In this document: positions 19,761-21,294 of the stretch, in pieces
How the letters are laid out: the number at the start of each line of letters is the position of its first letter
How positions within the stretch are numbered: position 1 is the stretch's first letter
Virus record (IMG/VR): IMGVR_UViG_3300038701_000530
Span: 1 to 29,691 of that record
From: a virus
DNA: 29,691 bases
Strand: one strand, 5' to 3'
The notes under the pieces: generated by a model
Database searches by the model: none
Told to the model about the DNA's origin: nothing
What the model saw: only the letters and a program-made list of their open reading frames with translations
Translations under genes and position numbers: made by a program

Positions 19761-20366
19761 CTATAAGGCGTTTAACGCGTCCATTAGTGACATAGTTTTA
19801 TTCTCGCGACCTTGTACAGGCTCGCTGCACAAACCAAGTATCTGATTTATCCTTTTTCGCATAAACTTCATCTTACTGTATTTACCTTGCATCAAGCTAA
19901 TTAGCTTTCCAGAGCTAGGTAAAAAGTTGTTGCCCTCTGGTAACTTCCTATAAGTCGCGCAAGCCTCGTTAATTAGTACGACTGGATATTCTGCTAGGTC
20001 GTGGCAATAATCGAGGAACATATATTGCACCTCTTCTGGCGCTTTACCCTGAAGACCGCAATGTAAGGCTAACTTTTTAATTGCCAGAGCAATCTGGTCA
20101 CCTGTTGCAGGTTGCATAATTGAGCTTAGCAGCCTATCCGCCTCAAAAGCATCGCGCATCACGGCATCCGTCTTTGGTACTGGGCGCATACGATAATGAT
20201 TACTAGATGATTGTGTTTTAAACTCCACCACCTTTCCATCCTCATCAAATACACAATTACCATCCCAATCAATATCTCGATTGTTTATCAAGCTCAGCAA
20301 GGCCGAGGGCAATTCCTTTCGTGAAGTCGTCATGGACGCTTGATTTGTTGTTATTTCGTTTTCCAT
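19761..20366 (-). CDS. Replication-linked protein, possible helicase-loader-like
   Basis: 201 residues. After a polar N-terminus come a helical block with QIALAIKKLALHCGLQGKAP and EVQYMFLDYCHDLAEYPVVL, then INEACATYRKLPEGNNFLPS and LISLMQGKYSKMKFMRKRIN. This arrangement (helices, then a PxxGxL-type turn and a basic helix) resembles proteins that follow O-like genes in prophages, which often work with the host helicase; that is a recollection, and there is no ATPase motif. Its first 98 bases are shared, in another frame, with the end of the O-like gene. The ATG has GAGG eight bases upstream. Confidence 0.72.
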   Translation of the reverse strand: MENEITTNQASMTTSRKELPSALLSLINNRDIDWDGNCVFDEDGKVVEFKTQSSSNHYRMRPVPKTDAVMRDAFEADRLLSSIMQPATGDQIALAIKKLALHCGLQGKAPEEVQYMFLDYCHDLAEYPVVLINEACATYRKLPEGNNFLPSSGKLISLMQGKYSKMKFMRKRINQILGLCSEPVQGRENKTMSLMDALNAL

Positions 20367-20982
20367 AATTATTACCTCTTGAGTTGTTATACCAATCAGC
20401 TTTAAAGCTAGTCCAGCCTCTTTCGCAACATTCCTGCAAAGCCTCTTCTAAACTTATGCCAGCGTTATCTGCTTCTCCTAATATTCGGGTTATCACTAAA
20501 TCTGTTATCGGTGATTTCTTAGCAGCTCTTAGTTTTTTAAAATTATCCCAAGTCTCATTAGAAACAACATCTGGTTTTGTTTGTTTTTTTATTACTTTTT
20601 TACTCTGTTCTGTATCTGTATCTGTATCTGTATCTGGGGGCGTTACAACCTTGTTTCTCTTGGCGTTTCTGAAACGTTTCACTCTATCGGTGGAAACATC
20701 TGATTTATATTGCCTTTTGTGCCATGAGTGAGGTGCTAACCACTTGCTATGTTGGTTGGTGAACTCTTGGAGAAGCTGAGCCTCAAGCAAGGCATCAACG
20801 AGGCATTGAGTTGCTGAAACGGAGGCTCGGACGTGGTAACTAATAGCCTCTATCGAGGGTAATTTACCATCGTTTTTACTCGCTATACATAATATGTTCA
20901 CCCAAAACTTAAACAGCTCTGGTGATAATGTTTGGACTTTAGGGTCGTCCAATACCTCGTTATAAAATCGGAACCACTTCAT
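20269..20982 (-). CDS. O-like phage replication initiation protein
   Basis: 237 residues. Residues 1-100 look like the winged-helix head of phage replisome organisers: MKWFRFYNEVLDDPKVQTLS, FKFWVNILCIASKNDGKLPS and then PHSWHKRQYKSDVSTDRVKR. A linker with TPPDTDTDTDTEQSKK follows, encoded by a hexanucleotide repeat. The C-terminal domain has ERGWTSFKADWYNN, which recurs in such proteins. By analogy with lambda O it binds origin repeats and recruits the helicase. Translation is favoured by a very long SD (TAAGGAGGTGATC, seven bases from ATG by its core) after a structured leader. The 3' end overlaps the next gene by 98 bases. Confidence 0.85.
   Translation of the reverse strand: MKWFRFYNEVLDDPKVQTLSPELFKFWVNILCIASKNDGKLPSIEAISYHVRASVSATQCLVDALLEAQLLQEFTNQHSKWLAPHSWHKRQYKSDVSTDRVKRFRNAKRNKVVTPPDTDTDTDTEQSKKVIKKQTKPDVVSNETWDNFKKLRAAKKSPITDLVITRILGEADNAGISLEEALQECCERGWTSFKADWYNNSRGNNYGKRNNNKSSVHDDFTKGIALGLAELDKQSRY
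20611..20634. repeat. Hexanucleotide tandem repeat coding for Thr-Asp
   Basis: Four exact copies of TGTATC on the given strand, reading as GATACA on the coding strand and giving the Asp-Thr linker of the O-like protein. Copy changes keep the frame, so linker length can vary without damage. Confidence 0.85.
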
Positions 20983-21008
20983 GCGATCACCTCCTTACAG
21001 GTTAAAGA

Positions 21009-21075
21009 TTACACTTTTAGGCGTGACGGGCGGAGTGTAAGGAAACCGCCCATTATCCCCTCAGAGCTACCGAGG
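21009..21075 (-). promoter_or_regulatory. Structured mRNA leader: hairpin plus H-type pseudoknot
   Basis: On the leftward transcript CCTCGG-TAGCT-CTGAGG (21075-21059) forms a 6-pair hairpin. Then GGGCGG (21051-21046) pairs with CCGCCC (21033-21028), and TTACACT (21040-21034), lying in that loop, pairs with AGTGTAA (21015-21009) beyond it. Loop 1 is 5 bases, the two stems abut with no base between, and loop 3 is 12 bases: the geometry of a compact H-type pseudoknot. It ends 10 bases before the extended SD of the O-like gene, so folding could gate ribosome access. Confidence 0.55.
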
Positions 21076-21097
21076 TTAAGTCACTAGTAAGAATACT

Positions 21098-21125
21098 ATA
21101 ATAGCACCTATTTTACAACTTGCAA
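21098..21125 (-). promoter_or_regulatory. Leftward promoter for the replication operon
   Basis: TTGCAA (21125-21120), a 16-base spacer and TATTAT (21103-21098) with TGC just before the -10, i.e. an extended -10. Predicted start near 21091. The TGCAAC repeats overlap and lie upstream of the -35 and could bind an activator or repressor. Confidence 0.6.
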
Positions 21126-21205: not shown

Positions 21206-21294
21206 CTATTGATTTAACCCGGGCTGCTCCATTGAAATATAAGCATAAATTGCATTTAAGGCGTTAATTTTAACCCGGTCTATTGATTTAACCC
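21206..21294. repeat. Iteron-like direct repeats, possible replication origin
   Basis: CTATTGATTTAACCC occurs exactly at 21206-21220 and 21280-21294; a third partial copy, AATTTTAACCCGGTC, is at 21266-21280. They lie about 220 bases upstream of the O-like gene rather than inside it as in lambda. O-type proteins bind iterons of this size, but repeats could equally be operators. Confidence 0.45.

Follow-up and report, generated by a model that had tools for sequence, protein, structure and literature searches.

A candidate two-pseudoknot leader upstream of an O-like replication initiation gene in a viral genome

To our knowledge, control of a phage replication initiator by the structure of the mRNA that encodes it has been described in few cases. 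Two mutually exclusive folds around a ribosome-binding site are seen in the E. coli rpsO leader, which adopts alternative hairpin and pseudoknot folds and in which S15 traps the ribosome on the pseudoknot; the leader described here likewise has two exclusive folds around its ribosome-binding site, but we know of no comparable protein for it. Other described systems resemble it in particular aspects: 1) In plasmid ColIb-P9 (IncI-alpha), by the account in PMC8383071 (citing Asano & Mizobuchi 1998), the Inc antisense RNA controls a pseudoknot step in the leader of the repZ mRNA, which codes for a replication initiator. 2) In preQ1-I riboswitches an H-type pseudoknot is formed by an anti-Shine-Dalgarno hairpin loop that masks the Shine-Dalgarno sequence (SD) (PMC11625349). 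3) Gene 32 of T4 and RB69, a phage DNA-replication gene, has an autoregulatory leader with a pseudoknot 5' of the SD; that of T4 nucleates gp32 binding, and pairing with the SD is not described (PMC535899).

The window, by which we mean the whole stretch of 29,691 nucleotides analyzed here (IMG/VR record IMGVR_UViG_3300038701_000530), codes on its minus strand for a protein matching PHROG 678 ("replication initiation O-like"; E 9.5e-18). The approximately 600 nt 5' of this gene contain no clear gene, and the features of interest lie in the last 109 nt. An original prediction, made from the sequence, had placed a translation-controlling pseudoknot leader here, a proposal that is supported both by the PHROG 678 assignment of the gene and by the retention of the architecture in a diverged relative, L135. 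The features are as follows:

20269..20982, minus strand: O-like replication initiation gene (MKWFRFYNEV...), 237 aa, ATG at 20982; PHROG 678, 3926 and 186.
21098..21125, minus strand: candidate promoter TTGCAA-N16-TATTAT with a TG extended -10 (consensus scan).
21080..21084, minus strand: 5' strand of P1, GTGAC, partner GTCAC at 21027-21023 (minimum free energy, MFE, folding).
21059..21075, minus strand: upstream hairpin CCTCGG-TAGCT-CTGAGG (21075-21070 / 21064-21059, one G-T; sequence and MFE).
21028..21051, minus strand: S1 hairpin, GGGCGG (21051-21046), loop TTTCCTTACACT, CCGCCC (21033-21028) (sequence and MFE).
21036..21043, minus strand: anti-SD loop segment TCCTTACA, partner TGTAAGGA at 20999-20992 in the putative SD-masked state B (pairing tests, L135 counterpart).
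21034..21040, minus strand: 5' strand of S2, TTACACT, paired in the putative SD-open state A (sequence).
21009..21015, minus strand: 3' strand of S2, AGTGTAA (sequence; L135 counterpart AGTGGCA).
20985..20997, minus strand: extended SD TAAGGAGGTGATC, complementary to 13 nt of the 16S 3' end (duplex -22.8 kcal/mol).

S1 and S2 occur on the minus strand in the interleaved order that had been claimed, with an L1 of 5 bases (TTTCC), no base between the 5' strand of S2 and the 3' strand of S1, and an L3 of 12 bases. The six-pair upstream hairpin with its single G-T and the 13-base SD had also been read correctly; the SD, said to follow S2 within 10 bases, is separated from it by 11. The S1 hairpin alone has a predicted energy of -12.1 kcal/mol. 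When the leader was shuffled with dinucleotides preserved, a Watson-Crick H-type pseudoknot with stems this long (at least 6+7 pairs) arose in only 1 of 3000 shuffles. In the whole window such a pseudoknot occurs once, as S1/S2 itself, where shuffles of the window yield about 0.4 per strand. Likewise, 59 of 20000 shuffled spacers match the S2 pairing. The nested MFE of the leader is only mildly better than that of shuffles (z -1.4), and in the nested fold the GTGT of the S2 3' strand pairs instead with the GCAT adjoining the start codon. The original prediction had missed P1, which in MFE folding can form the closing helix of a three-way junction whose other arms are the upstream hairpin and S1. 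The candidate promoter would start the RNA just 5' of the structure and give a leader of about 109 nt, though sites of this kind have a similar density by chance.

The gap 5' of the O-like gene contains two exact copies of an iteron-like repeat, GGGTTAAATCAATAG (21206-21220 and 21280-21294, minus strand). A third, partial repeat, CCGGGTTAAAATTAACG, lies just downstream of the first copy, and a degenerate copy in inverted orientation overlaps the leader (21073-21087, plus strand). These are candidates for an origin or an operator; the L135 contig has no copy within 3 mismatches.

Examination of the 12-nt loop of S1 (UUUCCUUACACU as RNA) revealed a second complementarity that the original prediction had overlooked: the segment UCCUUACA can pair with UGUAAGGA in the SD region through 8 Watson-Crick pairs, or 10 including two G-U. 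This loop-SD pairing and S2 are mutually exclusive, and by duplex energies computed without pseudoknot penalties it is the more stable of the two (-11.4 vs -6.8 kcal/mol), an ordering that recurs in L135 (-12.1 vs -8.1 kcal/mol, likewise without such penalties). Of 1742 SD-bearing starts taken from the window and from phage loci, 4 are preceded by a hairpin (5 pairs or more) whose loop matches 8 or more bases over the SD; the leaders of the window and of L135 are two of these four. Shuffled loops reach 8 pairs with the SD in 114 of 20000 trials for the window and 93 of 20000 for L135, the CCUU/AAGG half of the match being partly expected from SD composition.

To obtain relatives we searched with an alignment of O-like proteins, which yielded 80 loci; the closest gene among them is that of L135, a 19.3-kb IMG/VR contig. 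The two proteins are 60% identical in pairwise alignment (about 77% at the N-terminus by tblastx) and the first 375 nt of the genes are 80% identical, while identity is 59% over the leaders and, in the 200 nt further upstream, 54% vs 53% for shuffles. In the part compared, the L135 phage has TerS in common with the window and little else. Its contig also carries a long simple-repeat ORF (L237, 9866-10337) that reads GSGYGYG and MALAMA in two frames, the second frame being fused to sequence of a Cro-like regulator.

The L135 leader retains a counterpart of S1, a GGGGG/CCCCC hairpin, with the loop UUACCUUGUCACA, the spacer AAAGUGGCAUC and the SD CUGACAAGGAGG. Its loop segment CCUUGUCA has UGACAAGG at the SD as its partner (as DNA, CCTTGTCA and TGACAAGG). 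In a base-by-base reading from a hand alignment (MAFFT puts the loop indel elsewhere), an A of the loop has become GU and a U before the SD has become AC, such that 8 Watson-Crick loop-SD pairs are found in both phages through a compensating one-base insertion. S2 has as its counterpart the loop UGUCAC with GUGGCA: the UA of the 3' strand is replaced by GC and 6 pairs are kept in the same register, one of them now G-U and one a full compensatory change from U-A to G-C, with loss of the terminal pair. Of the two stems that were expected to persist in homologous leaders, S1 is kept, and S2 is kept at a level that 1953 of 20000 shuffled spacers equal (p ~0.1). As the controlling partner of the loop, the role given to it in the original prediction, S2 is less conserved and weaker than the loop-SD pairing. 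P1 is absent from L135 and the upstream hairpin has only a weak counterpart there (GTCG/CGAC), and both were rejected as conserved parts. A promoter-like site in L135 (TTGACT-N17-TACAGT at 1860-1888; consensus scan) would give a leader of about 105 nt, and the SD, which lacks the extension, forms a weaker duplex with 16S rRNA (-12.2 vs -22.8 kcal/mol).

We then let the window leader drift in simulation, with 40% substitutions and with the SD core and start codon fixed. In 20000 trials the S1 hairpin and loop-SD pairing were kept 14 times, and S2 along with them twice. Since drift so rarely keeps the loop-SD pairing and S2 in L135 falls short of significance, we regard the former as well supported and the latter as plausible.

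The architecture is present in two leaders, those of the window and of L135. The motif is missing from about 50 other O-like leaders examined. SD accessibility by nested folding gave a mixed picture among other O-like leaders; pattern scans of viral contigs recovered no homologue besides L135, and the matches to GGGCGG...CCGCCCGTCAC in these contigs were set aside as mostly GC-rich chance hairpins. The terminase relatives L007-L010 have no O-like gene in the parts compared, the genome contigs searched yielded no relatives, and searches of phages and plasmids returned distant O-like proteins only. Other structures are seen next to some of the more distant genes. In L137, L139 and L144, whose O-like genes are 47-48% identical, an apparent SD-masking hairpin TCTCC...GGAGA lies right before the ATG, upstream of 2001, with a nested SD accessibility of 0.23-0.35; it may be a different solution that also restricts translation of the initiator. 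In L136 and L167, upstream of 2001, an ATGCCT...AGGCAT stem encloses the SD and adjoins the TTG start of the O-like gene, with GC-rich hairpins 5' of it.

Taken together, these sequence comparisons lead us to propose, with moderate confidence, that the O-like initiator mRNA has a cis-acting, pseudoknotted 5' leader, about 109 nt long, which acts as a two-pseudoknot switch on translation of the initiator. The stable S1 hairpin would present its 12-nt loop to two mutually exclusive partners. In state B, pairing of UCCUUACA with UGUAAGGA would cover the first part of the SD and block initiation. In state A, the loop UUACACU would pair with AGUGUAA just upstream, leaving the SD free. A weak local hairpin in both phages pairs the S2 3' strand with bases adjoining the AUG (-7.2 kcal/mol in the window, with 108 of 1000 shuffles doing as well, and -9.3 kcal/mol in L135, with 57 of 1000), and state A would also undo the outer pairs of this hairpin around the SD and AUG. 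The switch as a whole would then have a single open state and either one or two closed ones. During transcription the loop would meet AGUGUAA first and the SD later; given this order, the nascent RNA is expected to pass through the open state and then into the more stable closed one, possibly resulting in a pulse of initiator early on, provided that no trans factor alters the balance between the two. In the window phage, the uncovered SD half GGUGAUC could receive the 16S tail, and the full 13-nt duplex at -22.8 kcal/mol could displace the loop and may override the masking. With just two such leaders found, the occupancy of both states in the cell, their effects on translation, the role in timing and any trigger are inferences. 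The leader probably serves as an on/off or timing switch for synthesis of the replication protein.

The strongest alternative, which we nevertheless consider unlikely, is that the SD-masking pseudoknot alone matters and tunes initiation down, S2 being a by-product of the chance recurrence, in the spacer, of the UGUAA found just before the SD. Such a reading draws on the better support for the loop-SD pairing in both phages and on the simulated drift, in which S2 survives in about one in seven of the cases that retain the loop-SD pairing; however, the S2 of the window is itself improbable by the spacer shuffles, and L135 preserves it in register with a full compensatory pair. An ordinary strong ribosome-binding site with inverted matches arising by chance and no regulation would fit the strong SD, the unremarkable nested folding energy and the presence of the structure in two leaders only, but it is made distinctly improbable by the shuffle, control-gene and drift tests.

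Comparison with the described systems bears on the remaining alternatives. As in gene 32 of T4 and RB69, the pseudoknot lies in the leader of a phage DNA-replication gene, and the leader co-occurs with the N-terminal region of the O-like protein in both phages, as might be expected if it were an operator bound by the O-like protein itself or another phage protein, in the manner of gp32. We think an operator of this kind rather doubtful: in the window the SD itself is the pairing partner, which differs from the description of T4, and the loop sequence has changed between the two phages despite their similar N-termini. A metabolite riboswitch of an undescribed class is highly unlikely, for although an H-type pseudoknot with an anti-SD loop, as in state B, is the layout of preQ1-I and of SAM/SAH riboswitches (PMC7367207), the leader differs from preQ1-I in its longer S1, much longer L3 (28 nt), alternative loop partner and association with a gene that is neither metabolic nor linked to queuosine, covariance models of Rfam cis-regulatory families including preQ1 and SAM have no match in the window at the gathering cut-off, Rfam models give no more than chance-level matches on the two leaders, and these differ in their junction bases, with no invariant unpaired block suggestive of a binding pocket recognizable from the two sequences.

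S2 recalls repZ, as it pairs the loop with a site between the hairpin and the ribosome-binding site of an initiator gene, and by analogy an antisense RNA might pair with the loop and decide pseudoknot formation; this appears very improbable, since a simple consensus scan for an OOP- or Inc-like RNA found no promoter-plus-terminator opposite the leader and no near match to the loop beyond chance occurs elsewhere in the window or the L135 contig. The window loop further differs from repZ in having the SD as an alternative partner, and we found no sequence relation between them. These likenesses do not place the leader in the repZ, preQ1-I or gene 32 systems.

The suggestion that 16S rRNA itself sets the timing is unsupported. 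The stretch TACACtCCGCCCGTCACgCC resembles E. coli 16S nt 1393-1412 at 18 of 20 positions, which is unusual for the leader (0 of 300 shuffles), but we rejected this mimicry as coincidence because other parts of the window contain equally good matches and because the stretch is missing from L135, where the pairings are kept; gapped alignment of the leader to 16S rRNA was no better than background. Separately, many Klebsiella KP32-like phages have an exact 19-base match that includes the same extended SD, located under annotated tail and host-range genes (matches H38-H53; query bases 106-124 of window 20960-21110, minus strand).

It is possible, and we put this forward tentatively, that the leader is the first of a new class of bistable leaders: a single hairpin loop would choose between a pseudoknot that opens the SD and another that masks it, with folding order or a phage factor timing the start of replication. 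If this is true, it would be a compact way to time replication, in about 70 nt and with no known ligand, and a single loop would combine two known logics, activation as in repZ and anti-SD masking.
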